A stretch of 64,000 nt of DNA from Schizophyllum amplum. Lineage: Eukaryota; Basidiomycota; Agaricomycetes; Agaricales; Schizophyllaceae. Both the position numbers and the translations under genes were made by a program. The DNA is taken from assembly GCA_007026445.1 (NCBI GenBank), contig VDMD01000017.1, positions 186,001 through 250,000 on the forward strand, in the 5' to 3' direction. Shown piece after piece: positions 729 through 57,215 of this stretch; position 1 is the first letter of the stretch; the number at the start of each line of letters is the position of its first letter. Under the pieces are notes generated by a model. The model saw only the letters and a list, made by a program, of their open reading frames with translations, was not told the DNA's origin and made no database searches.

Positions 729-2283
729 CTACGCTTGAGTATCGACCTTCCTAGCCCGCTTCTTCGGCGGCGGCGGGTCGTCGTCGGCGATGGACGCTTG
801 GGTTCGAGTGCGTTTGGAACTAGTTGAGGCGGCGGGAACGGTACGGTTGCGAAGCTTGCGCGCGCCCTCAGGAGTACGGGCCTGGTCAGCAGCGGGCCGG
901 GCGCACAGCGGGTCCGAGACGTCGTCAGGAGGCGGGGGAGGAGCTCGCGAAGGGCCGACAGGTACGCTGGACTTGGCGAATCGTTTGGGAAGACGGGCCA
1001 TAGGCTTGGATTTCGTGGGATTGTCGGACTTGGCTTTCTTGCCGACTTTGGATTTAGATCGCAGGGAGTAGGAGCGCTGACCATTGTCGAGCACAGGTAA
1101 CTCCTCCTGGACTTCTTCCTCGGCGTCCTCCGTCGGTTCGAACCAGTGCTGCACGGCAGGATAAAGCGTCCCGTTGAAGAAGCGGACTTCCTCGGGGGTG
1201 AGGTCCTTCTTGAGCTTGGGGTCGCGCATACGAGTACGGAACTTCATGGCGAAGTCGTGGATCATGAAGACCGGGTTGAAGTGGCTGAGGAGGCGAAACT
1301 TGAGGTCTGGCACATCTGGACGCAGAAGGAATGAAGTATGACTGTCATGGCCGGCAGGAGGCACGCGGTATCTCTCGGGGACATCACCAGCCCTGAGTTT
1401 CCAATCCTTCTTGTCGTCTTTGCGCTCGCCAGAGATTGCTACGAGCTTCGCATCCTCGTAGCCCTCGCGCTTGGCATCAGCGGATGCAGCAGCGACATCG
1501 CTCAGGTGTGCATAAGTACGACGAGCAGAGCCGTGCCTTGGGATAATGGTCGATTCTCCAGACCCAAAGACCCGCATCTCGTACTCGTAGTAGGGCTGAT
1601 CAAAGAGCTGAAAAAATGGTAAGCTTGATTCAAATGCAGCGAATACCAACGTACATCGGGGTAGGGAGTCCGGGGGTTCTCTTTGATACGCTTCAGGCAA
1701 GGATTCAGATCCACGGGAACGAGTGCGAATGATCCCAATCCGATCTGCGTTGTGACCGACTTGCCGTCAAACAGCGCGTGCACCCAAGCCATGACTGCAG
1801 ATATTCAAGTCAGATTCAATACCAAGTGCCTACAAGCAGCACGCACACAGTTCCATATTGGCCGTCGTGTCCAAATTCAGGACCCGAACTTTCTCGCCAT
1901 TTTCGAGGATGATGAACCCTACGCTGTCGCGAAACAACTCGAACTGCAGTAAAAGTCAGTACATTATATTGTAGTAATGACGAAGGATAACTCACAAGCT
2001 CAGGGTGAGTCCATTCGAGGGACCGCGGGACACCATGTGCGCAATGAATCCCATGTCCGGGGAATATTGCGCCAGTTATCAGGCAAGCCGCGATACCAGC
2101 TCGACGCACGGTCCTTGCCCTGTTCTTGGCTGGGCGATGGACAGAGGTACGTTGCTTCGGCGTTGCAGTCATGTCGCGATCCGTGGACTTCTGCTCCGCT
2201 CTGGTGGGCGTGTGCTCCCTGTCGGACGTGCCGCCAGCGGTAGCCTTTTCTTTGCCACGTTTCTTTCCGCCATCCCCAGCCAT
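729..2283 (-). CDS. A1: HNH_2-type nuclease-domain protein, nuclear-looking (467 aa, 4 exons)
   Basis: Exons on the minus strand are 2283-1996, 1943-1847, 1794-1655 and 1607-729, joined by canonical GT-AG introns of about 50 nt. The N-terminus is basic and low-complexity. The core then shows the order expected of fungal HNH_2 proteins: a CLITG motif, a histidine in AHGVPR, a strand-rich segment, an asparagine in TANMEL and a histidine in HALFDG, followed by FALVPVDL. The middle carries SHFNPVFMIHDFAMK, shared by all A copies. The tail is rich in Lys, Arg and Pro, has the repeat-like RTPEGARKLRNRTV and ends in PPPKKRARK, a likely nuclear localisation signal. Unlike A3 and A6 it has no long Asp/Glu tract. 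It is divergent from B1 across 391 bp. The HNH assignment rests on motif spacing; substrate and activity are unknown. Confidence 0.8.
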
Positions 2284-2674
2284 GGCGAGGGGAGGAGAAA
2301 GAAAGAGCGAAAGGACCAGGACTGAAACATGAATTCAACCTGCCTCATTATATAGTCAAATCTGTGCAGAGACCCATTGTTCTGCCCATGGCGTCAAACT
2401 CGTGGCTGGGCCAACGAGAATTAAAGAAGCGCAGCATGTTTGACTCACAAGACAATCGACGGCGAACATTCCAATGATGTCGGAGCCAGGCGGCGGGCGG
2501 CGGGCGGCAGGCTGGCCAACAAAGGGGAACAATGATCGCGTTCAAGCGCCGGGATATTGCGATGACATATTCAGTTGCTGACGTGCACGAGGCCCGGGCC
2601 GCTCAAGGGCCGCCGGTCCGCTGATGACATGCGTTTTCCGTCTTGTCCTCCGCCACCACCATTATTCCGCTGCT
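2284..2674. promoter_or_regulatory. Bidirectional promoter of pair A1/B1
   Basis: This 391 bp interval separates the two start codons. Towards A1 it holds TATATAA (minus strand, 2348-2354), 65 bp before the A1 ATG, and AACAATGG (minus strand, 2374-2381). Towards B1 it holds ACAAAGGGG (2519-2527) running directly into AACAATG (2528-2534), both resembling HMG-box protein sites. The block AGAACAATGGG plus GACTATATAA recurs in the A3 promoter. Confidence 0.6.
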
Positions 2675-3963
2675 ATGTCTATGTGTGAAGAAGCCCTCAG
2701 ATGTCCCATCACTGGTGCTACCGACAATCTCCTGCAATGCCGTGTTGTATCCGAGTCCGCAGACGCAGACGAATCTCAGGCAAGCTCTATCACTCGCTCG
2801 TGCATGTCCTCGCTGACTCTTGTTGACTAGATTGCATGCATGGAATGGGTATTTGGGCTTCCTAGAGGAGGCTTATCCTATTACCTTCAATCGCAGGAGA
2901 ACACGATCTGGTGTACGTTTGATTGAGATTCATCTGTTGCCCAACGTGCTTACTGCCCGGTAGTTCGTGAAGATATCTGCCGCATGTACTCGCGAATGGA
3001 ATTTCTCCTTGTGCCTACATTCAAGACCTTCATCGACGCAATGGCCTTCATGCAGCACGCGGGTGTCACGGCCCGAAAAAATAACGATGAATCACCGCGG
3101 CGCCCATTGACTGCGGTTAGTGCTGCAAAACCTCGTTCATACGCCGTGATTCCGTCTTCTGATCAGACTTGCAGCTCGCCTCCAACAGAGCCTCGTATCG
3201 CTACACGTTCATCGCGTTCACAGAGGCTGCACGTGGTCTTCAAAAGGAATTCAAGATGCAGTCGCCAACTATGGAAGATCTCAATAATAACTGGCATCCA
3301 CTGCTAGAGAAACCTTTGTTGGAAGGCAGCGACACGTACCCTGTTCTGGAATGCTTCTCGCATCCATTCTGCATCTCGACTTTCGCAGAGAAGGCCTTCT
3401 GGCGTCGTCGGAAGACCGAAGTCACTGCACAATGGCATGTCTGCTGCGATGAACTCGTCGACCAATGGCGCCTAGAGAGAATCCCGCCTCCGCAATGGTT
3501 TATCGATGCGCCAAAACTTGGACAGGACGACACAGATCTGAGCGCCACCGAGGCCTCTGGCTACAATCCTCTCACATCTGAGGACACCGTTGCACCAGAC
3601 CAGGGTGGGGCGATTGGAGCGACCGACACCCCTCATCCGCGCATGAAGGTGTCTTCTTGGTTGGGCAAAGTCGATCTTACGATCGAGCCCATCGAGGAGG
3701 AAGCGCCTCCCTCCCCTCGCAAGCTACGCCGCTCTAGCCGTATCGCTGCACTCTCGTCTCCGTACGCTTCGTCTCCCGAGCTCTGCGCACCGGCCTCTCC
3801 TGTGCGTCACGCTCCCTGGCCCTCCACGCGTGGTCGCAACCCCGTCCGTTACCCACCAGCGTGGGTCAAGCGCAATGGGTGCTTCCCGACAAATAGATTT
3901 TCAAGCAACGACTGGGCATACTTCCAGTACGGTATCGCTCTGGCCGCCCGCGCTGACCGATAG
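2675..3963 (+). CDS. B1: partner protein of A1, degenerate HNH-like fold (375 aa, 4 exons)
   Basis: Exons are 2675-2779, 2831-2912, 2964-3115 and 3175-3963. The first intron appears to use a GC donor (CAG/GCAAGC), the others GT-AG. The N-terminal core reads CPITGA, then ACMEWVFGLPRGG, then QENTIW and REDICRMY, then FLLVPTFKT. This parallels the CLITG, N and FALVP blocks of gene A but lacks the histidines there, so I infer a non-catalytic relative. After YTFIAFTEAARGLQKEFKM comes a B-specific domain. It has PPQWFIDAPK, the acidic DDTDLSATEASGY, a basic segment SPRKLRRSSRIA (likely a nuclear signal) and a conserved end FSSNDWAYFQYG. The function is unknown and no named domain is recognised with certainty. 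Confidence 0.75.
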
Positions 3964-4704: not shown

Positions 4705-6059
4705 ATGTCTCATCCTAGAGAAGTCATCAAGTGTGTGATATCGGGGGCTACCGACCATGTGCGTCAATGCTGCCCCATGAAGCGTGACGACGATCTGGAG
4801 GAGTTTGCAGTAAGTCATCCCGCAGTGTGGGTGCCGGTGATTTCCTCTGACTTCACGAATTAGGTTGCATGCCAAGAGTGGATCTTTGGTATTCCTCGAG
4901 GAAGCTTGCCTTATCGAACACAATCATGGGAGAACACTTTGTGTTGTATGTCAATTGAGTCTGCATAATCTATGACATGCTGATTGTATGCCAGTCCGCG
5001 AAGACATCTACCACATGTATAGGCGGGGACAGTTTCTTCTTGCGCCCACATTTAGGACTTACATCGACACTACCGTCTTCATGGAGCAACGCGCGGGCCT
5101 CACGGGCCGCAAGGACGACGACAAGTCACCACGTCGTCCATGGTCTGGAGTCAGTCATTTTCAATCTGATTGCCGTGTATCATAGGTGAAGCCATATCGC
5201 ATACTGATATTCATACATACAGCTCACTTCCAATGGAGGTCCTTTCCGCTACGTCTTCATTCCGTTCACCGATGCCGCGCGCAAACTCCAGGAAGAATTC
5301 AAGATGCAACCGCAAACCGACGACGACCTCAACTACGGTAAATATCCAGGGACCTCCAGAGAATATCTTCTGGACGGCAGTGATGTGTACCCAGTAATCG
5401 AGTGCTACGCACACCCGTTCGCGGTTTCGACGCATGCGGACAAGGCCTTCCAGCGTCGTTCCGGTTCAACTACGCCTGTGAGGGCACAGTGGCATGCCTG
5501 CGCCTCCGACATAGTGGATCAATGGCGATGCGAAGAGATCTTGCCTCCGCAATGGTTCGTCGATGCGCCGAAGTATGAACTGGACGACTCGGATTTGAGC
5601 TCGACTGAAGCCTACGGTTACGACCCATCAGCCACCTCGGAAGATACTGCCGTATCCGAGCCCGCCGCCAGAAGACTACCTGGCGAACCAGACGCGGATG
5701 CGGAAGGTGCTGATCCGCACACAAAGGTGCTCACCTGGCTAGGTAAAGTTGACCTCAGGTCCAAGCCCCTCGAGGAAGAATGGTTTCGCGATCGCTCACC
5801 CCGCAAACTGCGTCGCTCTGACCGCATCGCTGCACGCTCATGTCCATATACCTCAACGTCTCCACGTCATAATCTCATGCCGTCTCCGACGCGACGAGCG
5901 CCATGGCCTTCAGTGCGTGGGCGCGACCCTCTTCGCTATCCGCCAGCGTGGGTGAAGCGCAACGGCCACTTTCCGACGCCCAAGTTCTCGAGCAACGACT
6001 GGGCCTATTTTCAATATGGTAGCGCTCTTGCTGCCCGCAACGACGGGGAGGAGCGCTAA
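4705..6059 (+). CDS. B2: solo member of the B family, no A partner (392 aa, 4 exons)
   Basis: Exons are 4705-4809, 4864-4945, 4995-5149 and 5223-6059. The intron positions and phases match B1, but here all donors are GT. The core has CVISGATD, ACQEWIFGIPRGS, WENTLC, VREDIYHMY and FLLAPTFRTY. The rest follows with FRYVFIPFTDAARKLQEEFKM, PPQWFVDAPK, DDSDLSSTEAYGY, the basic SPRKLRRSDRIA block and the terminal FSSNDWAYFQYG. The frame is open throughout, so the gene looks functional. It lies in the same orientation as B1, 741 bp downstream, and is the only intact B copy here without a divergent A gene. Confidence 0.75.
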
Positions 6060-6526
6060 CACCAGCGATCGAAATTCGACACGGATTCCTGTCTCATCGC
6101 TACAGATGTTCTTCGCAAGTCGCTCTGCCGGTCTCCTCAGCAAGGACACCATCACCGCGAGCGTCGTCTCGCGATGCGCTCGCAGCGCGGATGTGCGCAA
6201 ACGCGTCTCACTGGTCCCGAGGAATCATCGACATCATGTGCATCTGTTGCTCGCGACCTATGGATGTGGCAGACCGCGATTTGACTGGCCATCGTTCGAA
6301 CTCAACCTTGCAATTGCTGTAGTCATCGGAATATTGACAATCGACTGTCGATTGCAAGGCTTCCCTGCAGCTCGCGTCTTACAGTACACAATCATGGAAA
6401 GGAGTAGAGGCGATGATAGGCACGAGGGGCCTCAGGGTAGAGACTAGTCCGTCATAGATGTTTTGTCGTTGAACCATAGAATACATTGTTATGCGCGACG
6501 CTTGCGCATCCACTTCTACACAGAGT
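6060..6526. other. Intergenic between B2 and the agmatinase-like gene
   Basis: This is the 3' flank shared by two convergent genes. No gene, repeat or terminator is identifiable. Confidence 0.5.
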
Positions 6527-14795: not shown

Positions 14796-15367
14796 GCTCG
14801 CCCAGGGAAGTCCTCGGGGAGGGGCAAGCCGCCGTTGCAGCCTTCGCTGTTCGGACGCGCGACAGCGCTCGACTTCGGCTGTATTGGTGAGCACTCGCGT
14901 TCATGGGCGTCGGTGCAGTCTTTTAGCCACTGTTCGTACAATTCCAACGATACTAAACATGCCTGGGTACGTTGAAGAAGTACGAGATGGAGGGGGCGGA
15001 GAACAATGGGCGCGCCACTGTAATCAGGTCCCGCCCGAGCGCGGCCGGAAGGCACGTGCCGCAGCCGTACTCGCTTTACTTCCGTTGCGTGTCTTCGGTC
15101 GTTCTAAGTGTTGCTTTGTTCACTGTCCAAGATCCTCACCTTGACGATCTACTTCCGCGGGAGCAGCGCAGATCCCTTGCCCAGAAAGAGGCATTGCTTT
15201 GGTGCTCAATGCGGATATTTGCAGAGTGCACAGGGTCGGTGCGAAGATGCAGGAGGGGGCAACTGATATGATACAACAAGCTGAAATGCATACGATGTAC
15301 AACAGAGACGCGTAGGGCATAAAGAGAAGATGGATGGGGGCCGATGGTATATACAGGATGTCCAAGC

Positions 15368-16121
15368 TCAATAGCCGTCGTTACCCGACAAGAATAGCGA
15401 CTCGGCGGCAGCACGCCGGTGCGGGCGGATGGCATATTGGAAGAGTTGAGCATAGTACGCGTCTGACGCGATTTCGTCTGCTTCGCGCTCTGGGTATGCG
15501 CAAGGCTGGATGTATATGTCAGAAATGAGCAACGAGAAGCATGAACGAGCGAACTGACCGGTGTAGAGAAGTACGTATCGTCATGGCTGAGGCGCGGTCC
15601 ATTCTCGTGAGACGATCCCGCGGTCTCATCGTGCGCAGAGTGGGGATCTTGGGCAGGCGTAGCCTGGTGTGATTTCGAGCTCGATGTCGAGGACGTGGAC
15701 GAGCTCCGGGTGGAAGGGGAGGGGGAAGAGGGCGAAGCCGGCGTATTGTTCCAGCGGAAGTTGGGGTTGTCCTGCTTGAACTTGATCAGGAGGACCTGCG
15801 CGTCGTGCTCGAAGGGGCGCTTGTCCTCATCCGACATGGTGTTCCACACTTCCGCCGCCTTGCGGCTGATGCCGCGCTGACGCTTGTCGGTCTTGGGGTG
15901 CCCGTGCAGGATGTACCAGGAGCGGAAGAGGATGAAGGCGTTCGGGGGCCGCTTGACGCAGTCTGTTTTGGTCTTGCTGCTGGATGCAGCTGCTGGGATC
16001 GGTATGAGTACGCGTGATCGAGGAAGATGAACCAAGTACACGCACCTGCAGAGCGGCTAGAGCTCTGGGGAGGATAGGGCTGAGCACGCGAGGCGCTGTA
16101 CGCGGAATGCTGCATAGGCAT
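15368..16121 (-). CDS. HMG-box transcription factor (MATA_HMG-like)
   Basis: This is a small nuclear DNA-binding protein on the minus strand. The start MPMQHSAYSAS at 16121 leads to a short exon ending SSSRSA, followed by an intron. The main exon carries an HMG box: KRPPNAFILFRSWY, then GISRKAAEVWNTMSDEDKRP, then LIKFKQDNPNFRW. A Ser/Thr/Pro-rich linker follows. A second intron (GTCAGT...CAG near 15562-15507) joins an exon whose frame ends in RRAAAESLFLSGNDGY with the stop at 15368-15370. Reading straight through that intron gives a longer but less protein-like tail. The box resembles those of fungal mating and pheromone-response regulators, but this copy cannot be assigned to a pathway. Confidence 0.85.
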
Positions 16122-24715: not shown

Positions 24716-25159
24716 CACTGAGGGAGTCCAGACTTCGAATGCGGGTAACAGACGGGTAACAGGGGAGTACCAGTGGCAGAGGGAAACAAGGAGGGAAACA
24801 CAAAGGCAAGACGTGCCACGCGGCATGCGGACCGACAGCCCGCGCATCGTGTACATCAACGAACTGTTGAAATGCAGTCACGCCGTCACCCTCAACTCGC
24901 CTATTGTTCGCCATTTGTGGACCTGCTGTTTGACCTCCGCCATCGCTGGCCTTTGCGCAATCGATTACATGTTGTGTCAGATGTGCTGCGCTTCCACATT
25001 TCATTGCCTTATATGGGGCAGGTGTCCCCGGTTTGCCACGAGTCAAGGGCCATGGGCAGAACAATGGGCACTGTTAGACTGACTATATAACGGAGCCGTG
25101 CTGATCTCTTTCCTTGATCCTAGTCCTCGCTCTCTCTCCGCCTCTTCCACGTCCTCTCC
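24716..25159. promoter_or_regulatory. Bidirectional promoter of pair B3/A3
   Basis: Towards A3 there is AACAATGG at 25060-25067, then TATATAA at 25084-25090, 70 bp before the A3 ATG. The block around the motif (GGGCAGAACAATGGG, GACTATATAA) is shared almost exactly with the A1 promoter. Confidence 0.6.
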
Positions 25160-32290: not shown

Positions 32291-32410
32291 GTCTGCTTCC
32301 AAACGCGCCCCTGGAACCGGAACGGGGCGAATTGATCTCACGTGAACTTTTCCACGCTCGGGGGTGTCTCGTTTTGGAAGGCTACCTCCCAAATGAGGGT
32401 TTATCTCCGA
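32291..32410 (+). repeat. Left 120 bp terminal inverted repeat
   Basis: It begins GTCTGCTTCCAAACGCGCCC and ends GGGTTTATCTCCGA. It matches the reverse complement of 38881-39000 at about 95%. Confidence 0.9.
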
Positions 32411-32474
32411 CCGCGAATGCTGCGCTCAGTCCTTGTACTCCTACGCCCGTTATACAGTACGCTTCACACCCAAT

Positions 32475-34563: not shown

Positions 34564-34927
34564 CTTCTTTTTAGCTACAAATCGATGCCAACGGGATTCA
34601 GAGCTCACTTTATGTGGTCCGCGGCGGTTCAATGTGCCTGCCAGCAGTGCACGCCATCGGTGAGCTTGAACGAAGGCCGAGGGGACGAGTGAGTGACCGT
34701 TACGTCACGGTTCGATGCTCAACCGCCGCGTGAGAAGGACACGATGTGCTCTTGCTTCTGACTCCCATCGACAACCCATAGACTTTCCCACCACTTGATT
34801 TCGAGTGCGCAATGCGCAGACGACATCCGTGGGCAATCTCGACATCGAAGGTGAGCTATGAAGAGTGAAAAGATGCACAAACTTACCAAATCTCTTCTAG
34901 GAGGTGCAATGTTGTGTTTGCACGCCC

Positions 34928-37900: not shown

Positions 37901-38818
37901 ATCACTCGCCATGCCTTGCCCCGCCCCGTGCGCGGAGTAGTAGAGCAGCTCGCCATATGTCCAGCCGAGTACATGCTCGAGGAACCAGAATAGCAGGTCG
38001 AGCTTCTGCTGACGAGCACGATAGACCCGGCGCAGTGGCGGCATGCTCGGAAGGGACTCGTTGGGCTCCACATCAACGTCCATATCGAGATGCGCTGTTT
38101 TGCGGGAGGCAGCTTCAAGAAGCGCCTTGGCAAGCGGATCACGTCGCACCATCGCCTCCATCCGCTGTTGCAGGGACTTGGTGAGAAACGGTCGTTTTCT
38201 GGGTTTCCGCGGCGCCTTGTTTACTGTGGCGAGGAGTGTGGTCCGGCTACTGGACCCACGTCGTGGAGTTTGAGGGGTGGCCAGAGAATGGTACGTGAAC
38301 GTCTGCGTAGCAGGATTCACGGTTTGCACAGGTGACTTCGGCATATGCAGCTCGATGGGCTCGAATTGCGTAGGGTCCGACATGCTCGAGTCGACGATCT
38401 CGAGGCGTGCCCGCTTCGACGGGCTTTGGAGGTAGTCCAAGGCTAGTGGATTGGTGTTCTCACATGGGTGTCGCCTACGCCGTGGGGTGTCGAAGCTAGG
38501 CTGGACTCGTGGCCTGCCACTAGGATGTGGTACTGGTGCAGAAGTCGTTGTCATGGGCGAATATTGCCGCGAGGGGGACGCTTGGGCGTCGTTGAGGTGT
38601 ACATTTCGTGTGAGGGGGAGAGGGATAGGTAGCGGAGGACGTGGATACTCTGCTGGTGGCGAAGGAGTGCGCTCGTCTGGAATCCAAGGAGGGCCTGGAG
38701 GCGGGACTGGTGGTAGTGTACTTGTATATGTGCTTGTTGGTATGATACTGGTGTTCCATTGTGGGACAGTGCTGTTCGGTGCAAAGGGATTGGCACGGAA
38801 GGCAAATTTCGAGTTCAT
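34928..38818 (-). CDS. DUF6589-family protein, candidate transposase (about 1,259-1,279 aa)
   Basis: Exon 1 (38818-37445) starts MNSKFAFRANPF just inside the right TIR and is Pro/Ser-rich, then helical around DLLFWFLEHVLGWTYGELLYY. A 51 nt intron leads to the large exon from 37393 to 34928, VATNVISTMLFSRSDRAN. A second 60 nt segment (36362-36303, GTGTGT...CTGAC...CAG) is in frame but has all the marks of an intron. DUF6589-like landmarks are ILRGDNVHNY, VVAGGDGYTFQRL and CHGDLLQEYFNR. Two conserved Asp and a late Glu in these are candidates for a DDE-type catalytic set. The C-terminus is Asp-rich. The gene is convergent with the helicase and is the other gene of the element. Confidence 0.75.
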
Positions 38819-38880
38819 ATCTGCTCGGCAGGTGCTTGCAAGGTATGAGGAGCGCACGACAAGTCGCTGACTTATTGTTC

Positions 38881-39000
38881 TCGGAGATAAACCCTCATTT
38901 GGGAGGTAGCCTTCTAAAACGAGACACCCCCGAGCGTGGAAAACCTCACGTGACATCAATTCGCCCCGTTCCGGTTTCCAGGGCGCGTTTGGAAGCAGAC
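38881..39000 (-). repeat. Right 120 bp terminal inverted repeat
   Basis: This is the reverse complement of 32291-32410 with about six differences. It ends (plus strand) GGAAGCAGAC at 39000. A minus-strand frame through it is continuous with the DUF6589 exon, but the first plausible start lies inside at 38818. Confidence 0.9.
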
Positions 39001-39027
39001 GTTCCCTGAACGTCTGCCTTGGAGACT

Positions 39028-41949: not shown

Positions 41950-43240
41950 TTAGGCCGCATCGCGAATGTCGAGGGAGCATGCATCGAGGCGAGAACCATA
42001 ACAGAACATCGCCCAGTCATTGCTAGAAAACTCATGTGTTGGGAAGTGTCCATTCTGCTGCACCCATTCAGGACCGTCGTCCTCGCCGAAGTCGCACGGA
42101 CGTGGGCGTGCTGCGAGGGAGAGCTTGCGACGGAGGCGCGAGGCATCCGCGTACGGAGAAGACTGCTCTTTGAGACGCTGAGATCGACGGAGCTTGCATG
42201 GCGATCGCGAGGACTTGAGGTCCTTGTCCGCTGGAGGCCTGATCTTCGGGAACCAGCTCAGAACCTTCGCGCGCGGTTCTGGGTATTCGGACTGATCGAG
42301 TTTTAAAATATCGACGACGTTGGCAGGCGTGCGGATGAGGGCGTTGGGCGACGAGGGGAGTTCGTAACCGAGCTTCTCGGATCCCACAACCGACATGTCG
42401 TCCCAGTCCTTTTTCGGAGTATCGAGGAACCACTGAGGGATACACGTATCCGACGAGGTCCATGCGTGGACGATGCGCCTGACACACGTCGCCCACTGTG
42501 CAGTGACGCGCGTTCCGAGGCTATGGTGCTGGAACGCTTCTAATGCGTAGCTGGAGATCGAGTATGGGTGTGCGCGGCATTCTACGATCGGGAGTTCGTC
42601 GCTTCCCGGACGAAGTGACTGCTTGTAAACGGGGTGGATTCCGCCGCTCAGGTCGTCCTCGGTCTGCGGCTGCATGTGGAATGTCTTCTGAAGCTCGCGA
42701 GCGGCTTCCGTAAAAGGGATGAAGACATAACGATAAGAGCCAGAAGGAGGAGTGAGCTAAATGAATGATGCATAATTAGTCACATTCAAGGAGAACGTGC
42801 GCAGGACGCACTGCAGTTAAAGGTCGACGTGGCGAAGAGTCCTCTTCATCGCGGTCGATGACGCCCGCGTGATTGACAAAACCCATGATCTCGACGTAGG
42901 TTTGGAATGTTGGTGCGAGAGTGAACTCGTAGTTGGCAAACATACGGGCGATATCGTGACGCACTGCGTGAAATCAGCAAGCATAATTGGAAGATTTGGG
43001 CTTGCACTACGTACTATACAAAGTATTATGCTCCGAGGAGAGATAATATAAGATTCCGCCTCTGGGAAGGCCCCATATCCATTCCATGCGAGGGATCTGT
43101 GGCCGTATGTGAGCCCGCGGAAAGCCACTTGTACGTACACGTACCTCAACGTCTTGAGGCGCGTCAATGAGATGGATAGATGCCATATCCTCACTAGAAC
43201 CAGCTATCGGACAGTCATATATCGAGCGAGACGGTGACAT
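41950..43240 (-). CDS. B5: divergent member of the B family, partner of A5
   Basis: The start MSPSRSIYDCPIAGSSED is at 43240. The following exons give MEWIWGLPRGGILYYL, EHNTLY and VRHDIARMFANYEF, with TLAPTFQTYVEIM. The last exon (42756-41950) begins LTPPSGSYRYVFIPFTEAARELQ. It then has IPQWFLDTPKKDWDDM in place of the usual PPQWFVDAPK and DDTDL. The C-terminus keeps SPCKLRRSQRLKEQSSPYA, EWVQQNGHFPTHEFSSNDWAM (shortened here to HEFSSNDWAM) and ends DIRDAA. Many conserved positions are substituted relative to B1, B2, B3 and B6, so this is a separate lineage. It lies head-to-head with A5 (441 bp), and the frames are open. Confidence 0.75.
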
Positions 43241-43681
43241 TGCGGCAAAAGACTTGAACTCGTCGTGGAAGAGGAAGAAAGAGATGTGAGCAGCTTGGAC
43301 CAACGCGTTCGATCACGAGATCATAATTGCACGTGGCCGCGATCATGAGTCATCGGTCCCTCACGCCGTCACGCGTTCGGTTCACGGTTCAACTTCAACT
43401 TCCATTTTCTACCATCAATGTGGATTTGCATTCCAGCAAGCCCGACGCAGCCACAATGCTGCGTCGCACAGAAATCTTAGTTATTCCCTTTGTTCATGAT
43501 CTCAGGGCATCGTGCTGATTATGATGACTCCTCGAACACAAGTACAATGGATCCCGCCCAGCCATGAGTAAGGGGGCCACCTCGCTCTTTCATGACCAGA
43601 CAATGGACATCCCCGGGGTATAAAAGCGACCTCTGTCTCTATGCGGTCCGTATCTCTGCACCTCGTCGATGTCGCTCTGCT
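43241..43681. promoter_or_regulatory. Bidirectional promoter of pair B5/A5
   Basis: TACAATGG lies at 43543-43550 and TATAAAAG at 43619-43626, the latter 56 bp before the A5 ATG. The spacing is wider than in A1, A3 and A6. Confidence 0.5.
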
Positions 43682-45218
43682 ATGTCCGACGTCTCTCCCT
43701 CAAGAAATCGCATCGACGCCGCGCTCGCGCCCAAGGCTCGCGACGAGTGTGGCACTCCAAACGCCCCGCAACAGCTTACTCCAGTTGACAACGCTCCAGT
43801 CAAGAGGAAGCTGTTTCCCGATACCCCTGCGCGTCGCACGGCCGTCAACAGATGGAAAGCAGGCAAGAGGAAGGTCCTTGGACTCGTGGGCTCGCCTTCC
43901 TGCCTGCTCTACGGCCGAATCAACGGGATCGTACTGCATATCATACACGTTGTACCGAGAACGCTGTGGCGGACACATCCGGAACTGGTGCGTGCCACGC
44001 ATTCTGGACGTCATTTGTGCATGTTCATTCACCACCTTGAAGTTCATCGCATTTCAAGAGGCCGTCGGCATCATCGTAACAAACCCTGACGGGTCAAAAG
44101 AGCGGGTCATAAACCTGGATGGCTCTGGAAATCAGGATCTCAGTAAGCATACATACCGCGAATGCCATGCCACAGATACTGACCCATAGTCTGTCAAGTG
44201 AATTGCCTGTCGCATACCTTCTTTGACGGTTTGTCTGTCAACAAGGGTCTCGGGGGCGGCGTTTTCTTCCTGGAACCCGTGAAGCTAGACGAGTGCTTGG
44301 AGGTCGTTGAGAGCAACACGGTTAGCAAGGACAAGGACTATCGCCAGGCGCGTAGTATTCCCATCACTTCATTTTTTCTGTGCTCATCATTTGCAGATGT
44401 TTCCGGAGCGCATTCACGAATACCGCGTACGCCTTCTCAGCGACTCTCAGGCCATGCCTATCGTATGCTGGGGTCCTGAACAACGTTCCTACGCGCATCT
44501 GTCTCCCGAAGCTTTGGAGCACACCGACGCCGTGGAGCCCGACGAGGTTCCCGAAGACGGGGATCCCAATACCAACGACGATACAAGTGGTGACGATCCC
44601 AGTGGTGACGACGACCTTGTTGCACGCATTCTGCAAGAGGTTACGGAAGAAGATATACGGGAAGCCGAATGTCTTGCCACTGTAACTCCCGACCCAGATG
44701 CGCGGCCACCTACTCGGTGGCTACCAGACGACATCATCATTGTGGTCACTCACCTCAATCCCGTGTTCCCGTTGTGGGATATGGCGAACAAGTTGCACCG
44801 TCGCCTCATGAAGGAGATCCCCGGGAAGCTATCGCAGGAAGAGACGGACCTTCACGACAAGATCTGGCCCGTCCTCAAGGTTTGGTTCGAACCTCCGACA
44901 CAAGCAGCCAAAGGCAAAGCAGATCAGCGTGTCCAGAAGCTCATCTTCGAAGGCGCTACAAGACGGTCGTCCCGCATTGCGAAGAATAACACCGAGCCGG
45001 CGCCTCCGCCCGCCCCTCCGGTCGCTCAGCCCAGACCTCGGTACGGGCGCACGGAGCCATCTGCCGACACTCGCTGCGTCCAGCCTGCTCAGTCTCGATA
45101 CGACTTCCGCGCGACAACTCTGAACGCGCAACTCTCTACCAGCGGCCAAAGTGCGAAGCGGCGTGTCGATGCCAACGCTGAGCAACCCAAGCAGAAGAAG
45201 AAGAAGACCTTTGCCTGA
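43682..45218 (+). CDS. A5: HNH_2-type nuclease-domain protein, divergent lineage (458 aa, 4 exons)
   Basis: Exons are 43682-43987, 44043-44142, 44199-44347 and 44397-45218. The third intron appears to use a GC donor (CAG/GCGCGT). After a Pro/Lys-rich N-terminus comes CLLYGRINGI with a histidine in IHVVPRTLWRTHPEL. Then follow VGIIVTNPDGSKERVINLDG, an asparagine in GSGNQDL and SHTFFDG. The shared VTHLNPVFPLWDMANK motif is present. The acidic tract is short and the tail ends with a lysine run (KQKKKKTFA). H, N and H of the HNH signature are retained. It groups with A7 by the GSGNQD core and by 100 nt second exons. Confidence 0.8.
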
Positions 45219-45536: not shown

Positions 45537-46190
45537 CGAGAGGCGAGGTGGCGCTGAGAGCAGAGCCGTGCCGCATTGACTGTATTCGTAAGTACCAGCG
45601 CCGGCAATTATTGTCGACTGTCCCGGTCCTTGTCGGCGCTGGCAGATATCCACGTTGCGCGGGGACCTATATTCGGGCGTGGCCTGATAGCGATCCTACG
45701 CCTGCAGTGGGATTTCCGAGGTGCGTCTTCTTTGCCGAATCGCCTCGAGGAGCGGACCGAGCAGTCGTAAGACTGCAGGATATCCGAGAAGCTCAATAGA
45801 TCGGACGCAACGACGCTACGCGCTGGACGTATCGAATGCGTCGTTTGGACTTTCGCGTGCAACGACGCCTTCGCCGCGGAGGTCGGCTATGTCGAGGATG
45901 GGCGTGCCGGTCCGCGCATCAACGGAGGCAGTAGCCTTCGAAGACTGTATGAGGTTGTAGCCCGCTGCCTTCGAGCTCGCGAATATCTCGTCGTCCAAGT
46001 TCACCATTCGAAGAGGCAGCCTTCCCCGTCTACTGCCGGAGTTGGTGAAGCAGGCAGATAGACCACTGCGATCAAGTCGCCGTAGGAGTGATAATGGAAG
46101 GCATGGTCCGCAAGAGTGCAAGCGCCTGATGCGAAACGCCCAGCATCGACAATTATCGGAACGTAGTATGTACGTTGGTTCTCCTGCATG
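45537..46190 (-). pseudogene. Deleted relic of a B7-like gene and its 3' flank
   Basis: Minus-strand translation gives broken matches to B7: ACTLADHAFHYHSYGDL, then MVNLDDEIFASSKAAGYN, then SSKATASVDARTGTPILD. At about 45895 the match jumps to the sequence found downstream of the B7 stop, so roughly 515 bp encoding the C-terminal third is missing. From 45537 to 45895 it matches 50780-51153 as shared 3' flank. The 5' part beyond 46190 is absent, replaced by sequence like the B6 3' flank. It cannot encode a complete protein. Confidence 0.75.
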
Positions 46191-46505: not shown

Positions 46506-47806
46506 CTAGGCGCGAGCACGGGCAGCTAGAGCGACGCCGTACTGGAAGTAGGCCCAGTCGTTGCTCGAAAATCTGGGTGTCGGGAAGCGTCCGTTGCGTT
46601 TCGCCCACGCCGGCGTGTAACGGATGGGGTCGCGTCCACGCGCGGACGGCCAGGGCGCCCGACGTATAGGGGAGAGCGGCGCGTGAAACTCGGGAGACGA
46701 CGAGGCGTACGGACTTGAGAGCGCAGCTAAGCGGGTGGAGCGACGTAGCTTGCGAGGCGAGCGAGGTGATTCTTGTTCGAAAGGCTTAGCCTTAAGGTCG
46801 ACTCTGCGGAGCCACGCAGACACCTTGGTACGAGGATCAGCAGCGTCGACGGTCGCATGCGCATCGCCCAGAGTTCTCGTTGCTTCGGGTAGAGAAGCTT
46901 CCTCGGAGGCGGAGGGATCGTAGCCAGAGGCTTCAGTCGCACTCAAGTCCGTGTCGTCCATTTCAAACTTCGGTGCATCAACGAACCACTTTGGGGGTGT
47001 GATCTGTTCAAGACGCCACTGGTCGACGATCTCGGCGGCACACACACGCCATTGCGCGTTCATCTCGGTGGGTGAATGAAGGGCGAAGGCCTTCCTCGCC
47101 CACGTCGAGACCGAGAACGGGTGTGCGTAGCACTCAACAACAGGATATTGACCGCTTCCCTCCAGCAAATCTATCTTCAACAAGGGGTGCCAGCGGTTGT
47201 TCAGATCGTCATCAGTCTGCGGCTGCATCTTGTATTTCTTCTGTAGCTCGCGGGCGGCATCGGTGAATGGGATGAAAACGTATCGATAGGGCCCTCCATT
47301 GGGGGCAAGCTAGCCTCAGGTCAGTTGTCTTTGTTCATACGAGCGCGAGATCATGACTGACCGCAGTCCATGGCCGACGCGGTGATTCGTCGGTTTCCTT
47401 GCGGGCCGTGACACCCGCGCGCTGTCTCATGAAGGCCATTGCGTCAATGTAGGTCCTGAATGTGGGCGCAAGTATGAACTGTGCTTCGCAATACATCCTA
47501 CAGATGTCTTTGCGAACTAGCAGACAATCAGCAAACGGCGGGATATGCGAGACATTGGTACAACGTACAACATAGGTTGTTCTCCCAAGACTGCATATGA
47601 AATGAGAGGCTTCCTCGGGGGATACCAAATATCCACTCTTGGCAAGCCAGCTTGACTGTACGGTCAGAAGGAAAGTCGAGATGGTAGAGCTGGGGGTTTA
47701 CCTCAAACTCCTCTGCATTTTCTTCAGGCTCCATGGGACGGCAACGGGATATATGATCGGTAACACCGGAAACAGGGCATCTCAGAATTTCTTTAGAATG
47801 ACGCAT
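46506..47806 (-). CDS. B6: partner protein of A6 (four exons)
   Basis: The start MRHSKEILRCPVSGVTDH is at 47806. Later exons give LACQEWIFGIPRGSL, SWENNLC, VRKDICRMY and FILAPTFRTYIDAMAFM. The last exon (47309-46506) starts LAPNGGPYRYVFIPFTD. It continues with PPKWFVDAPKFEMDDTDL, SATEASGYDPS, SPRKLRRSTRLAALSSPYA and the terminal FSSNDWAYFQYG. It is close to B3 and B8 along the C-terminus and in the 3' flank. Frames are intact and it is head-to-head with A6 (401 bp). The role is unknown; as in other B proteins, histidines corresponding to the A active site are not seen. Confidence 0.78.
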
Positions 47807-48207
47807 GGTTTGTGCTCTTCCCAGTAGGTAGCAGATTAGTGGCAGAGGATGGAAGCAAGAAGACAAAGAGGAAGTTGCCGCATGCCACGCGTCGGGCCGA
47901 CGGCCCGTGCTCATCAACGAACAATAATTGAAACACAGGCGGACCATTGTTCGCCTCTGTTAGCACTCGCTGCAACCTGCGCGCCTGCCCGCTTGTCATT
48001 CGGCACCACCGGCCTTCGCACAATCGATTATCTGGCGCGTTCGATAGGCTGCGCATCTGCATTTTGGTACCATATTTGTCGTGGGTTTGACTTGAATCCA
48101 CGTGTACTACCCGAACAATGGGAGGTCCCGCCGAACCAGCCGGCCGACTATATAACGGCTGTTTTGCGGTGGTTACTTGCCCTTTCCCTTTCACCCTTCC
48201 CCCCATC
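47807..48207. promoter_or_regulatory. Bidirectional promoter of pair B6/A6
   Basis: AACAATGG lies at 48114-48121 and TATATAA at 48149-48155, 53 bp before the A6 ATG. GACTATATAACGG is identical to the A3 promoter. Confidence 0.6.
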
Positions 48208-49810
48208 ATGGCTGGGGATGGCGGCAGGAAACGCGACAAGGGGAAGGCACCCGCTGGCGGGACAGCAGACCGAGAGCATACCCCCGCAAAGCCACCCCCA
48301 GTCCATGATGGGCCTCCAACGCCACCCAAGAATACGCCTTACTATCGCACGCCGGATAATAGGGAACGGACCATACGGCGGGCTGGCATTGAAGCTTGCC
48401 TCATGACTGGTCTCTTGGACGGGCTCTCCCTACAGTGCTTTCACGCTGTAGCCAGGTCCCTCGCGAGGACCCATTCGGATATAGTGAGTGCTCCCTGACT
48501 GCTTTGTTTTGTACTCACTGGCAACGCAGTATAAGCGCTTCCGGAACAGTGTAGGGCTGTGGGTCAAAAAGAATGGCAGAAAGGTTCGAGTGTTGAATCT
48601 GGACACGACCGCCAACATGGAGCTTCGTGCGTAGTATCGCGGTTCAGATGAGCGACGCTGACGAGTATTACACTCAGTCGCCGACTTTTTGCATCGCTTG
48701 TTCGACGGTCCCTCGGTGAGGCGCCGGTACGGGCAGGGCATATTCGCCCTCGTTCCTGTAAACTTAGCTTGGTGCTTGAAGCGCATTAAGGATAACCCCG
48801 ACATGCCATATCCTGAGGTATGTACACGCACATTGGATAATGATGACCAAACTTATCCCTTGCAGCTATTCCCAGAGTCGACATACGAGTACACGATTGT
48901 TGTCTTCACGAATGGTACCAACAGACGGGTATCGAGGCATGCGTCTTTCCGTCGCACATACGCCCACGCCCTTCTCGCCGAAAAGCATGACTCAAAGGAC
49001 GAGAGCGACGAAGAATACATCACGGACGATGAGGACAATGAGGAGGACGACGAAGCTGAGGATAGCGAGGACGACCAGGACGACGAGGATGACGAGGACG
49101 ACGAGGACGGAAGCGAGCACGATGAAGACACGAAGTCCAGTGATCTTAACGACCAGAAGGACGAGGATGAAGACGACTCCAGCTCAGATTTGGAACCCAT
49201 GAACGATCCTAACGTGATAGACTTCTTCCTCAATCGCGGCGTACCGGAGCTAGATGTCCCGATGCTGAGCCATCTCAACCCTGTCTTCCCGATCTTCGAC
49301 TTCGCGATGAAGATGCGCACTCGCGTAAGCAAGAAGCAACTAGAACGACAGCTTTCGCCTGAACAGCGCCAGTTTTATTCTGCTCACGTCGAGCACGCGG
49401 TCAAGCACTGGTTCGAGGCACCCAAGGTTGCCGTCGGTGGACTGAAGGACTTTTCGACAGAAGACGACGACCCTCAATCGAAGCGGAAAGCTCGACAGAA
49501 GGCCAAGTCCACCATAGCCGCCAAGGCTGCTCCTATGGCTTCTGTCCAGAAGCGAGTCGCCAAAACCACTCCAGCTGCCGGCTCTTCGCGAGCGCCTCCT
49601 GCTTCCCCCGCTCCCCCCGCCGTTGCAGGCCTGCGGCGCTCCCAGCGTACCGGTGTTCGAGCACGTACTCCCGAAGGCGCGCGCAAGCTCCGCAGCCGTA
49701 CCGTCCCCGCCGCCTCGACAGGCTCCAAACGCACCCCCATCCAAGCATCGATCACCGACGAAGACCAGCCGCCGAAGAAGCGGGCCAGGAAGGCCAATAC
49801 TCGAGGCTAA
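48208..49810 (+). CDS. A6: HNH_2-type nuclease-domain protein with long acidic tract (485 aa, 4 exons)
   Basis: Exons are 48208-48483, 48530-48626, 48678-48817 and 48866-49810. The N-terminus MAGDGGRKRDKGKAPAGG matches A1. The core has ACLMTG, a histidine in QCFHAVARSLARTHSD (the usual PR follows as ARS here), VRVLNLDTTANMEL and ADFLHRLFDG, with FALVPVNLAWCLKRI. About 90 residues rich in Asp, Glu and Ser follow LFPESTYEYTIVVF. Then come DFFLNRGVPELDVP and SHLNPVFPIFDFAMK, and the C-terminal RARTPEGARKLRSRTV and PPKKRARK. The core HNH residues are present, but the proline after the first histidine is lost. Whether that matters is unknown. Confidence 0.82.
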
Positions 49811-51208: not shown

Positions 51209-52629
51209 CTATGAGGGCAGCGCAGTCCGTCTGTCATCACAGCGAGCTGCAAGAGCTGCACCACGTTGAAAGTACGCCCAGTCATTGCTCGTGAAGTTGT
51301 CCGTTGGGTACCCTCCGTTGCGTTTCACCCACGACGGCGGGTACCGAATGGGATCGCGGACGCGTTCAGAAGGCCACGGCCCGCGACGAGTAGGGGAAGG
51401 TGGCGGCGGCCCGTACGGGCATGAGCGCGCCGCTAAGCGACTAGATCGGCGCAGCTTGCGGGGTGAACGGACCATCTTCTTGTCCTGGACAGGCTCGACA
51501 TTGGGGTCGTCGCAATCAGGGTCGACCTTGCCCAGCCAGGCGATGACTTTCGTCTGCGGGTCAGCGTCGTCGACAGCCGTGTCTTCAGCGGCCGTATCGG
51601 TTGTGCGCGGGATGTCGGCTGGATCAGAAAGACTGGATTTCTCGCGCGCAGGGCACTTGTCGGCAGGCATGTTGAGGGTGGGCGTGCTAGCCGACGCATC
51701 AACGGGGGCAGTAGCCTTCGAGGACTGGCTGACGTCGTAGCCCGCTGCCTCAGAGCTCGCGAGTGTCTCGTCGTCCAAGTCCACCGGTCGTGCGTTGACG
51801 AACCATTCGGGGGCATATGCATCCTCCCCCGTCCACTGCCGGAGGATGTAAAGCAGGCAGATGGACCACTGCGCTTTGACCAAGTCGCCGTAGGAGTGAT
51901 ACTGGAAGGCACGGTCCGCAAGAGTGCATACTGAGTACGGGTTCGCATGGCATTCTACGACGGGGTAAGACTCGGTCCCCGGCAGCCACGGCTCCTTCGA
52001 CACCGGGTCCAACCCGCCATTCAGATCCTCGTCCGTCTGTGGCTGCATCTTAAATTCCGTCTGCAGCTTGCGTGCAGCATCAGTGAACGGAATAAAGACA
52101 TATCGAAATAGACCATTGGGCGGTGATAGCTGAATTACACAAAAGTCAGTTCCCAGAGCAAATGTCGGCACAAATCATGCGCACCGCTGTCAAAGGCCTA
52201 CGAGGCGACATATCCGACTCGCGACGACGCAATACGCCCGCGCGCTTAGAAAATGACATCATATCCAGATACGTTTTAAAAGTCGGCACGAGGGCAAACT
52301 CCCAACCCGCATATAGTCGAGCAATGTCTTCGCGAACTTTGGATACAATTAACACGCATGTCAGCTAAACTGGAAATGCGGAACGTACAAAGGACCACGT
52401 TATGCACAGTGACGAGATAGTATTGCAGACCACCGCGCTCGAGTCCCCAAAACCATTCCATGCACGCCACCTGTAGCGAGATAGTTTAGTGTACCATCAT
52501 CACAGCTAGTTAGACATTGCGCACCTCGTATTTATCTCCCTCATCTGCGTCTTCCGGAATCAAGTCGACGGTATACATATTGTCAGTTGCACCCGAGATG
52601 GGGCATTTCAGCCAGGGCTTTGAGTCCAT
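51209..52629 (-). CDS. B7: long, divergent member of the B family, partner of A7
   Basis: The start MDSKPWLKCPISGATDNM is at 52629. Following exons give ACMEWFWGLERGGLQYYL, an HNVVLC segment, VREDIARLYAGWEF and ALVPTFKTYLDMMSF. The last exon (52129-51209) is the longest of the family. It begins LSPPNGLFRYVFIPFTDAARKLQ, has APEWFVNARPVDLDDETL and a linker of about 50 extra residues, and resumes SPRKLRRSSRLAARSCPYG with a C-terminus FTSNDWAYFQRGAALAAR. It is the parent type of the relic at 45.5-46.2 kb. The start-to-start spacing to A7 is the shortest in the window (282 bp). The frame is open. Confidence 0.76.
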
Positions 52630-52911
52630 TACAGGTAGCGAAGTGGCTGAGATAGATGATGGGAGTGAAGGAAGGAATCGCGATGGAACGCTTGGACCGA
52701 CGCGACAGCACGTGGTGTATCGCTTTCGTCTCAGATTTGTCATCAGCTGCGGCGTGGGCAGGTCTCCATTTGGCAGTTCGCTTAAGGCGAACAATGGCGG
52801 TCGCGCAACGTGAAGCCGCGCCGGCTTGCCTCCGATGGCCCATCCTTTCAAACTATAAATACCTGGGTGTCACTGTCTTGCCTGCCGTAGTGTCCCTCAC
52901 TCCCGACCTTC
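52630..52911. promoter_or_regulatory. Bidirectional promoter of pair B7/A7
   Basis: AACAATGG lies at 52790-52797 and TATAAAT at 52854-52860, 52 bp before the A7 ATG. The spacing between the two motifs (56 bp) is greater than in A3. Confidence 0.55.
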
Positions 52912-54422
52912 ATGGCTGACGGGTCGCCGTCGCCCTTCGAGGCGGGCCCGTCCCGACCTCCTGCTACCCCAGCTCCAGTCGCCCGCAAGGACGACAACTC
53001 GGACAAGAAAGTCGTCAAACAGTCTCCGAAGCGTCCCTTTGCTCCTGAGGACCTCGCATTGCTCTTCGTGACTCCGAATTATCGCACCCCGATCAACAGG
53101 TCGAGAAGGCTGAAGCGCAAGGTCATAGCTCTAGTTGGCGCCCTATCATGCTTGCTCGTTGGCATGCATCACCGCTTCAGTATGAATGTTGCCCATTGGC
53201 TGCCTAGAACGCTTGAGCGCACTCATCCGAACCTGGTCAGTCAGCCATGAACGAACATCATAGGCCATATCGTTAACTGCTTCTCACAGTTCGCGCGTTT
53301 GCAAGCCGCGCTTGGTCTTATCATACAACGTGAGGACGGTACACATGAACGCGTTTTTCACCTCGACTCCTCCGGCAATCAGGACGTCGGTGAGTTCCTC
53401 GACGCTGTCAATTACTTGCCCAACTTTTTGCTGACTTTGAAGTCTAGTAAACGGCTTTCACCACCCCTCCTTCGACGGTGACGGCGTTGGCTCTGGCATA
53501 TGGTCAATCGTACCAGTCGAGCTGCTTAAGTGTCTGGACCGGATTCGAAACAATCATCATATGAGCTGTCGACAAGTACGTTGCATACGCTTCGGCCCTG
53601 CAGCCTCTGATTGACCATCATACACAGTGGTTCCCAGAGCGTCACTACCTGTATAGACTGCATGTCTATGATCAGGAGTCGCTTGCGCTATTTCACTGCG
53701 GCCCCAAGTTGCGGTCTTACTCGCACCTTCCCTCTGAGGCTCCTACCGCCGAGGAACTCGAGGCCGAAGACATCGAGTTCAGCCAACAGGACGGCCCAGA
53801 CGATGAGGACCAGTCGCCCCTTATCGGGGAAAAGGACATCCCACCCAACTGCGCTACTAGCTCTACAGACACCAGCACGACTTTTCGCATGATCACTCCC
53901 AAGAGCCGTTCCGATTGGATCATGCGATCGCACCTCAACCCTGCCATTGTCATCGCCGACGTTGTCTTGAAGCTACGCTACCGAGTGGAACTTCTGGGCG
54001 ACGAGAACAAATTGGCGAAGAAGGATCTCGAGCTCTATCGTTTGATTTGGCCCACAGTCCAGTACTGGCTCGAAGACGTCGACCCGGCTGGCCCGAATCT
54101 CCAGGCGTCGATCGCAGACGCTTTCGAGAATGGCCCTCGGCGCTCTGAGCGCAACAAGACTGCGAAGACGGAGCCGTTGGCTAAGGCCGAACGACTCGTC
54201 AGCCTCGCCAAGAAGCGCAAGGCCGCTGCCTCTGCTCCCGTGATTGCTCCTGCTCAAGCATCCTCTTCTCGCAATAAGCGTGCCTCTGGGAAGCGTACGA
54301 CTCAGCGGTCGTCTACTGTCGATTCGTCAAAGCCGCGCCCCGGTCCTCGCGCCGACGAGCAGGCGACAGAAGGCGAGCCTGAGAGGAAAAGGCGCAAGCT
54401 CGCCCGATTTGGCAAAGACTAG
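52912..54422 (+). CDS. A7: HNH_2-type nuclease-domain protein, divergent lineage (448 aa, 4 exons)
   Basis: Exons are 52912-53235, 53290-53389, 53448-53575 and 53628-54422. The N-terminus is Pro/Ala-rich. The core has SCLLVGMHHRF and a histidine in AHWLPRTLERTHPNL. Then come LGLIIQREDGTHERVFHLD, an asparagine in SSGNQDV, GFHHPSFDGDG and WSIVPVELLKCLDRI. Then come WFPERHYLYRLHVY and SHLNPAIVIADVVLK, the A7 version of the shared motif, and a Lys/Arg/Ala tail ending ARFGKD. The acidic segment is moderate. Exon 3 is shorter than in the other A genes (128 nt) because a loop before WSIVPV is missing. It groups with A5. Confidence 0.8.
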
Positions 54423-55851: not shown

Positions 55852-55909
55852 TAGAGCGAGTAGATGCTGGGGCTTGCATCAAGTCCGAGTCCGCTAGACG
55901 CAGTACGTC

Positions 55910-57215
55910 CTACGCGCGGGCACGGGCAGCGAGAGCGACGCCGTACTGAAAGTAGGCCCAGTCGTTGCTCGAGAATCTGGGTGTCGGGAAGCGTCCGTTG
56001 CGTTTCGCCCACGCGGGTGTGTAACGGATGGGGTCGCGACCACGCGCGGACGGCCAGGGCGCCCGACGTACAGGGGAGAGCGGCGCGTAGAACTCGGGAG
56101 ACGAGGAGGCGTACGGACTCGAGAGCGCAGCTAAGCGGGTGGAGCGACGTAGCTTGAGAGGCGAGCGTGGCGATTCCTCTTCGACAGGCTTGGCCTTGAG
56201 GTCGACTTTACCCAACCAGGTGAACACCTTCGTACGTGGGTCAGCAACGTCAGCGTGCGCGTCTGCCTTGCTGGGCGGTTGAATGACCCGGGGTGCGGAA
56301 GCGTCCTCGGACGTGAGGGCATCATATCCAGAGGCTTCGGTCGCGCTCAGATCCGTGTCGTCCACTTCATACTTGGGGGTATCGACGAACCATCGTGGCG
56401 GTTTAATTTGCTCCAGGTGCCACTGCTCGACTAGGCCGCCTCAGCGGTGCAGTTATGCCACTGTGCACTCAGCGCGGTGGACCGGCGACGGTCAAAGCCC
56501 CGAGTCGCCAGGGTCGAGACCGCATAGGGATGCGCGTAGGACTCGACGACTGGGTAGGCGTCGCTTCCCACCACAAGATCTTTCTCCAGAAGAGGGTGTT
56601 TGCCGTAGTTGAGATCGTCGTCAGTTTGTGGCTGCATCTTGAACTCTTCTTGAAGCTTACGCGCGGCATCGGTGAACGGGATGAAGACATAGCGAAAAGG
56701 GCCTCCTTTGGAGTCAAGCTATTACATGCCAGTATGCGGTATCGCAGAACATAATCGGGACTAAAACTGACCGCAGTCCATGGACGACGCGGTAATTCAT
56801 CGTCGTCCTTGCGACCCGCGACACCCGCGCGTTGCATCATGAAGGCCATTGTATCGATGTACGTCTTGAGTGTTGGTGCAAGAATGAATTCCACGCGTGC
56901 AAACATATCACAGAAATCCTTGCGGACTGTCCAACAGTTAGCGTTTTGCTCGATGGACGGACTTCAAGGTAACGTACGACATAATCTGTTGCCTCATGAC
57001 TGCAGGTGGAAAAGCAGACTTCCTCGAGAAATATCAAATCATATCCATTCCTGCCAGGCCAGCTACCTCACGACGTGAGACTATAGCAATGCAAATGAAT
57101 TTCACAGACAACTAACCTCAAGTTCCTCTACATCCGCCTCCAGCTCGGCCATGGGACGACATAAAGAGAGATCGTCGATAGGACCAGATACCGGACATTT
57201 CAAGAGTTCCTTACA
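55910..57215 (-). pseudogene. B8: broken solo copy of the B family
   Basis: It has the full B layout, including CPVSG, FILAPTLKTYIDTMAFM, FRYVFIPFTDAARKLQEEFKM and FSSNDWAYFQYG. It carries at least four lesions. There is no ATG at the expected start (near 57205-57215). In-frame TGA codons sit just after QEWI and in the codon before the usual ENxLC asparagine. An extra 5 bp at about 56432-56439 shifts the frame after NCTAEA. The remaining C-terminal frame is intact, so decay is recent. No A gene lies beside it. Its closest relatives are B3 and B6. Confidence 0.82.

Follow-up and report, generated by a model that had tools for sequence, protein, structure and literature searches.

The homeodomain mating genes of basidiomycetes, HD1 and HD2, are arranged as head-to-head pairs that have multiplied and diverged, each pair being composed of two partner types. 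An array of comparable layout is described here for Schizophyllum amplum (assembly of 49.65 Mb in 309 contigs), within a window of 64,000 nucleotides that corresponds to positions 186001-250000 of contig C79; the window denotes this whole stretch. Its two genes, A and B, are also placed head to head, multiplied and diverged, and represent two different partner types. In contrast to HD1/HD2, A and B are devoid of a homeodomain and both look HNH-derived. Homeodomain searches gave no match in five A or six B proteins, in agreement with a preliminary description of this DNA; the resemblance in layout to mating-type or toxin/antidote loci proposed there is supported as a likeness. The reading favoured here, with a probability of about 45%, is that A is an HNH nuclease and B its dead paralogue and dedicated partner, co-produced with A and acting with it as a complex.

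A resembles the HNH_2 proteins (PF13391) in having a Cys and T-G-like start followed by H, N and H in this order, and B shows the same frame with the N kept. The differences relate to the A1 score, which stays below the Pfam cut-off, to an acidic stretch and a basic tail carried by A, to the absence of the last and mostly of the first His in B, and to the maintenance of A and B as divergent pairs. Four HNH_2 matches above the cut-off are present in the same genome, on contigs C223, C304 (two) and C246. The HNH_2 genes L003 and L004 are near-identical, located on different contigs (C246, C304), and both lack the last catalytic His.

Bacterial polymorphic toxin/immunity systems, as presented in the excerpted part of a survey (PMC3482391), likewise place an HNH effector beside a dedicated partner gene; A and B differ in being eukaryotic and intron-bearing, and in that the partner is likely a paralogue of the effector. 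The same part of the survey reports that toxin domains, HNH type included, have been transferred to fungi. CRN effectors with HNH_2 are eukaryotic HNH_2 proteins as well, and in the excerpt of PMC8044898 they are stand-alone oomycete proteins equipped with N-terminal modules of their own, for which that excerpt describes no paired partner. A/B-type pairs were not found described in the literature searched, including excerpts of PMC3482391, PMC8044898, PMC6525431 and PMC9815663.

Gene models and pairing of A and B

Each copy was modelled with a purpose-written spliced protein-to-DNA aligner. Spliced alignment yielded five A/B pairs in the window (A1/B1, A3/B3, A4/B4, A5/B5 and A6/B6), which bears out the earlier report of five head-to-head pairs with 282-444 bp between the starts. 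The features of the array are as follows (window coordinates; the lengths of the intergenic regions are the start-to-start gaps):

729-2283, minus strand: A1, HNH gene, 467 aa; spliced model with four exons (2283-1996, 1943-1847, 1794-1655, 1607-729)
2284-2674: A1/B1 intergenic region, 391 bp; GAACAATGG at 2374-2382 (minus strand)
2675-3963, plus strand: B1, pseudo-HNH gene, four exons, 375 aa; GC-AG intron 1 set by eye
4705-6059, plus strand: B2, intact solo B, four exons, 392 aa, no A adjoining
23423-24715, minus strand: B3, 377 aa; spliced model
24716-25159: B3/A3 intergenic region, 444 bp; GAACAATGG at 25059-25067 (plus strand)
25160-26790, plus strand: A3, 492 aa; spliced model
41950-43240, minus strand: B4, 380 aa; spliced model
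43241-43681: B4/A4 intergenic region, 441 bp; two copies of ACAATGG
43682-45218, plus strand: A4, 449 aa; spliced model
45888-46120, minus strand: B6-like gene fragment
46506-47806, minus strand: B5, 381 aa; spliced model
47807-48207: B5/A5 intergenic region, 401 bp; GAACAATGG at 47944-47952 (minus strand) and 48113-48121 (plus strand)
48208-49810, plus strand: A5, 485 aa; spliced model
51209-52629, minus strand: B6, 419 aa; spliced model
52630-52911: B6/A6 intergenic region, 282 bp; GAACAATGG at 52789-52797 (plus strand)
52912-54422, plus strand: A6, 448 aa; spliced model
55913-57218, minus strand: B7, B pseudogene, no A adjoining

The window models of A1, A3-A6 and B1-B6 are open from start to stop; the automatic model splits B1 differently from the version adopted here. 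Exon 2 measures 97 or 100 nt in all five A genes and 82 nt in all six intact B genes. The exon lengths noted earlier are confirmed; A exon 3 has a length of 140 nt in three of the five genes (122 nt in A4 and 128 nt in A6, as modelled). Among the three B genes previously regarded as remnants without an A, B7 is indeed a pseudogene, for which no ATG was found and whose model contains two in-frame stops, and the B6-like stretch is a fragment, but B2 is an intact gene. With A5 as the only query, the remaining four A genes of the window scored 206-1244, compared to best scores of 36-83 for shuffled stretches of the same kind with any A query (at the places tried), so that the A matches are not due to chance. 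B5 alone gave scores of 721-1409 for B1-B4, B6 and B7.

A search of the whole assembly with B5 and A5 revealed that the array extends on C79 from 186 kb to 441 kb. In total 18 A and 37 B copies were found: C79 carries 30 B with 14 A, C237 carries 6 B with 3 A, and C1 has a single copy of either gene. The five pairs of the window thus understate the array, which spans about 255 kb of C79 and has copies on two more contigs. The A genes were searched with A5 genome-wide, then upstream of each B, then with tblastn on the fetched DNA, and later genome-wide with A4 and one C237 A core; the copy counts are lower bounds, and a very divergent unlinked A might escape the search. The genome-wide searches with the three A queries (best candidates only) found no A beyond these 18.

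The strict pairing claimed for the window extends to the genome: the 5' neighbour of all 18 A found is a B on the opposite strand, head to head. The modelled 5' ends are 283-493 bp apart in the 15 pairs on C79 and C1. B occurs alone whereas A was not found alone, a feature missed by the preliminary description. There are 19 B without an A among the 37, and 11 of these 19 lie on the same strand directly behind another B, at a distance of 496-2593 bp, which indicates that B can duplicate alone. The pattern of toxin-antidote pairs, in which the effector never stands by itself, is found here as well (18/18 A paired, 19/37 B solo), and tandem B duplication explains at least part of it.

Residues, introns and probable kinship of the two proteins

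The residues H, D, N, H and D are invariant in 18/18 A copies, in the order H ... D-x3-N-x8-H-x3-D, and the H-N-H catalytic residues of the HNH_2 nuclease family are kept in all of them, with a less independent count for the copies at 309 kb, 325 kb and C237:275 kb, which were assembled by eye. The identity among A copies falls to about 25%. HNH_2 is the sole Pfam family that matches more than one A core (5/16, best E 0.0019); for the A cores NCBIfam and PHROGs gave scattered matches only, with E 0.036 or worse, and PDB sequence searches with the A and B profiles gave nothing credible. Against a reference profile built from two HNH_2 proteins encoded in this genome (L002 and L004), the A profile scored 24.1, compared to at most 16.6 in 100 column shuffles and 8.2 in reverse. 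The confident part of this match is the first-His half, and in a relaxed alignment the H, N and H of A line up with those of L002. The residues together with the weak profile matches uphold the previous designation of A as HNH-like; they suggest that A is HNH_2-related, with the one printed score (A1) lying under the curated threshold, and A is predicted to be a nuclease. The five window A possess a lysine/arginine-rich C-terminal tail (tails outside the window are uncertain models), which may serve as a nuclear signal and may point to nuclear action of A.

In B, the Asn is kept in 35/36 copies, while N+9, the position of a His in L002 and in every A, is occupied by Cys in 24 copies, Ala in 8, Tyr in 3 and Gly in 1, and by His in 0/36; the first-His place holds H in 2/34; the copy at C237:100 kb, which has no core, is excluded from the residue and intron counts. 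The H-N-H set of the HNH_2 family is thus absent, and B is predicted to be an inactive, degenerate HNH relative of A, a point which the preliminary description had missed. The B profile matches the same two HNH_2 proteins better than A does (32.6, with 100 shuffles reaching at most 18.9 and the reverse 11.1), and the match covers the Asn half. HNH_2 is one of two Pfam families matched by a B core (1/18, E 0.25). No relatives of B were found among viral contigs.

The intron positions connect the two genes. Intron 1 is in phase 0 in 15/15 A and 33/34 B; intron 2 is located at N+4 in phase 1 in 15/15 A and 35/36 B models; intron 3, in phase 0, is located at N+51 to N+56 in 10/13 A and 35/35 B, with N+33, N+45 and N+47 as its positions in the remaining A. 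The A counts are based on the 15 of 18 copies with automatic models, and exclude the three assembled by eye. The HNH cores are spread over three exons and are therefore interrupted at the DNA level. Owing to these shared positions and phases, A and B look like ancient paralogues, most simply formed by a head-to-head duplication.

Divergence, intergenic motif and mating-type genes

Synonymous divergence (dS) was calculated for 35 B and 13 A, among them the C1 copy after omission of its stop codons. It is defined for 55 of the 78 A-A comparisons, with values below 1 in 3 (0.72-0.93) and of 1 or more in 52, and is saturated in 23; among the 595 B-B comparisons it is defined for 350 (below 1 in 37, 1 or more in 313) and saturated in 245. 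At dS below 1, the ratio of nonsynonymous to synonymous divergence (dN/dS) ranges from 0.20 to 0.24 in A (3 pairs) and from 0.10 to 0.30 in B (37 pairs); as judged by these values, the close copies are under purifying selection, and solo B copies are represented in this constrained set. An origin of the pairs by a single recent segmental duplication, which had been named as an argument that would undo the pairing claim, was rejected, as dS is mostly 1 or more or saturated and unlinked copies are present on C1 and C237.

The distances of cognate A and B are correlated (Mantel r 0.92, p 5e-5, 18 pairs, 20,000 permutations). In the A tree as in the B tree, A4/B4 has the C1 pair as its sister, and the copies from C237 make up a single clade. 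These data show that A and B have for the most part moved and persisted together as one unit. The last ~80 codons of B (both last segments) have a lower dS than the HNH-like segment in 8/11 comparisons and not in 3/11; for B3-B5, the last segments have dS of 0.15 and 0.46, compared to a saturated HNH-like segment. Low-divergence B 3' ends are found, for example, at 46506-46750 and 23423-23660 of the window. The lower dS suggests gene conversion at the B 3' ends.

The regions between A and B share a short motif. ACAATGG is present in 13/13 intergenic regions first examined (the commonest 7-mer of 50 base shuffles reached at most 6/13) and AACAATGG in 12/13 (commonest 8-mer of the shuffles at most 4/13); this k-mer control shuffled single bases only. 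For GAACAATGG, 20 copies were counted in 14/15 intergenic regions and 5 in about 206 kb of other fetched sequence, where the 15 regions exclude the three C237 pairs, two have approximate limits, and related copies cannot be counted as independent. The window contains 7 copies of GAACAATGG, where 0.46 would be expected; a pair of these copies (13497, 15001) lies outside the A/B pairs. ACAATGG is also found upstream of 5/18 solo B, the nineteenth being without a start model. A TATA-like box is present on the A side in 13/13 intergenic regions. The pattern GAACAATGGG recurs at about 9.3-9.8 kb spacing on C1 (near its start), C8, C13 and C68, as seen at the first places only; this spacing might reflect a tandem repeat, e.g. 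ribosomal DNA.

The intergenic motif resembles the HMG/SOX site. In the genome 34 HMG-box matches were found, of which three are on C79 (201.8, 269.7 and 277.6 kb), within the span of the array; six others are on C299, five of them within 48 kb. The first C79 match corresponds to one feature of the window:

15136-16056, minus strand: HMG-box gene within the array (match at 201.8 kb of C79)

A homeodomain mating-type locus was considered and, for Homeobox_KN and STE3, rejected. C79 and C237 have no match to either: Homeobox_KN, the only homeobox family of the genome search, matches C90 and C244, and the STE3 receptor matches are located on C241, C269 and C1. At C244:1.109 Mb two Homeobox_KN matches form a divergent pair. 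The STE3 sets on C241 and C269, some with equal scores, look like two haplotypes of one receptor locus. An allele search found two flanking stretches to be each single-copy in this genome, and hence no second allele is at hand for a comparison of diversity.

Proposed mechanism and alternative explanations

In the proposed mechanism, an ancestral HNH gene would have been duplicated head to head, one copy keeping the catalytic H-N-H and the other losing the histidines while retaining much of the domain. A would be a nuclear HNH-type nuclease and B its catalytically dead paralogue, both co-produced from one bidirectional promoter. B would bind A in a heterodimer that replaces the ancestral HNH homodimer, and would control or aim A. 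The unit would then have multiplied as a pair, with extra B added alone, leading to a diversified repertoire. The absence of any A found without B, while B is often alone, is consistent with a role of B as controller or antidote, but part of the solo-B pattern would likewise result from tandem duplication. A and B may work together, as the strict pairing had been taken to imply, and B is predicted to bind and control A. The diversified array may point to a role in conflict, non-self recognition or genome defence. A more detailed version, a hitherto undescribed fungal system of non-self recognition in which an HMG-type regulator would switch on the pairs at mating, the B of the own pair would license or block its cognate A, and a mismatch in fused nuclei would lead to DNA cleavage by HNH nuclease/pseudonuclease heterodimers, is considered quite unlikely as a whole.

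Several observations weigh against the nuclease and dead-partner reading. Eleven of the 16 A cores and 17 of the 18 B cores have no HNH_2 match, A1 (the only member with printed bits) reaches 14.8 bits where the HNH_2 cut-off is 21, and L004, one of the two HNH_2 references, itself lacks the last His. Compared directly, the A and B profiles show no significant match (hhalign E 0.08-0.25), and the common origin therefore rests on HNH_2 similarity and introns. The AlphaFold model of B exon 4, from six window sequences, has a pLDDT of 38 and gives no structural support. The three C237 pairs have gaps of 719-1603 bp, with start exons incompletely modelled, and the A copy on C1 has two in-frame stops in its model. 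The 11 solo B that follow another B need nothing beyond tandem duplication. Linked duplication alone suffices for the agreement of A and B distances, and the trees are partly in conflict: A1 is joined to the 257-kb A (support 0.96), but in the B tree B1 clusters with B3 and B5, apart from the 257-kb B (support 0.97). The positions of A6 and B6 also differ between the trees, that of A6 having no support value listed. Finally, GAACAATGGG is common genome-wide (409 occurrences compared to 52 of the reversed pattern), which weakens a special link to HMG proteins.

The likeliest alternative, itself unlikely, is a toxin-antidote or selfish drive system, in which A kills nuclei or spores that lack the B matching it, each B protecting the nucleus it belongs to; this is a special case of the partner model with B as the antidote. 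In its favour are the 19 solo B, which would be orphan antidotes, the lack of any A found without a B, the diversification of the array, and the transfer of toxin domains to fungi reported in the excerpt of PMC3482391. B nevertheless looks like a paralogue of A and not like an unrelated antidote, 11 of the 19 solo B may be tandem duplicates, and the purifying selection seen in many copies is easier to reconcile with a retained host function than with a transient driver.

It is unlikely that A and B are ordinary, non-interacting paralogues that share a bidirectional promoter. Divergent neighbour genes are common in compact fungal genomes, the promoter motif is found genome-wide, and the constrained comparisons include solo B, which indicates that B is useful without an adjacent A. 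Such paralogues would, however, hardly account for 18/18 pairing kept on three contigs across mostly high or saturated divergence while B also exists alone.

A third alternative retains the mating-type analogy: as in HD1/HD2, A and B from different nuclei would form recognition heterodimers that switch on a programme, the HNH fold binding DNA without cutting it. The head-to-head layout, the multiplied and diverging pairs, the basic tails, the likeness of the motif to the HMG/SOX site and the location of 3/34 HMG-box matches within the span of the array are consistent with such heterodimers. They are judged clearly improbable: the intact H-N-H in 18/18 A argues for catalysis, the matches to Homeobox_KN and STE3 were located on other contigs, the motif is frequent throughout the genome, C299 has a cluster of HMG-box genes as well, and the single-copy flanks provide no second allele. 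A mobile element made up of the two genes, with copies inserted next to each other, is very improbable, since the spread over three contigs and the known occurrence of HNH domains in mobile elements are opposed by the presence of 30/37 B on one contig, by the 11 solo B that are same-strand neighbours of a B, as local duplication gives, by purifying selection, and by the window's only long pair of near-identical inverted repeats, which flanks a different element.

The latter element, located at 32291-39000 of the window, has a size of 6.7 kb and 120-nt terminal inverted repeats (94%). It encodes a DEAD-box/Helicase_C protein, a DUF6589 protein (Pfam E 1e-111) and a 531-aa open reading frame, and 19 stretches of the genome match DUF6589. 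It looks like a DNA transposon.

If the reading of A as a nuclease and B as its dead partner is correct, a nuclease and its dead twin would have remained head to head through 18 surviving pairs, and the array would be a clean system for studying how control of an active enzyme passes to its pseudo-enzyme sister. In basidiomycetes, the genes underlying somatic incompatibility are, to our knowledge, largely unknown, and A/B would add a class of candidate genes for nuclear recognition or for the defence of the genome.

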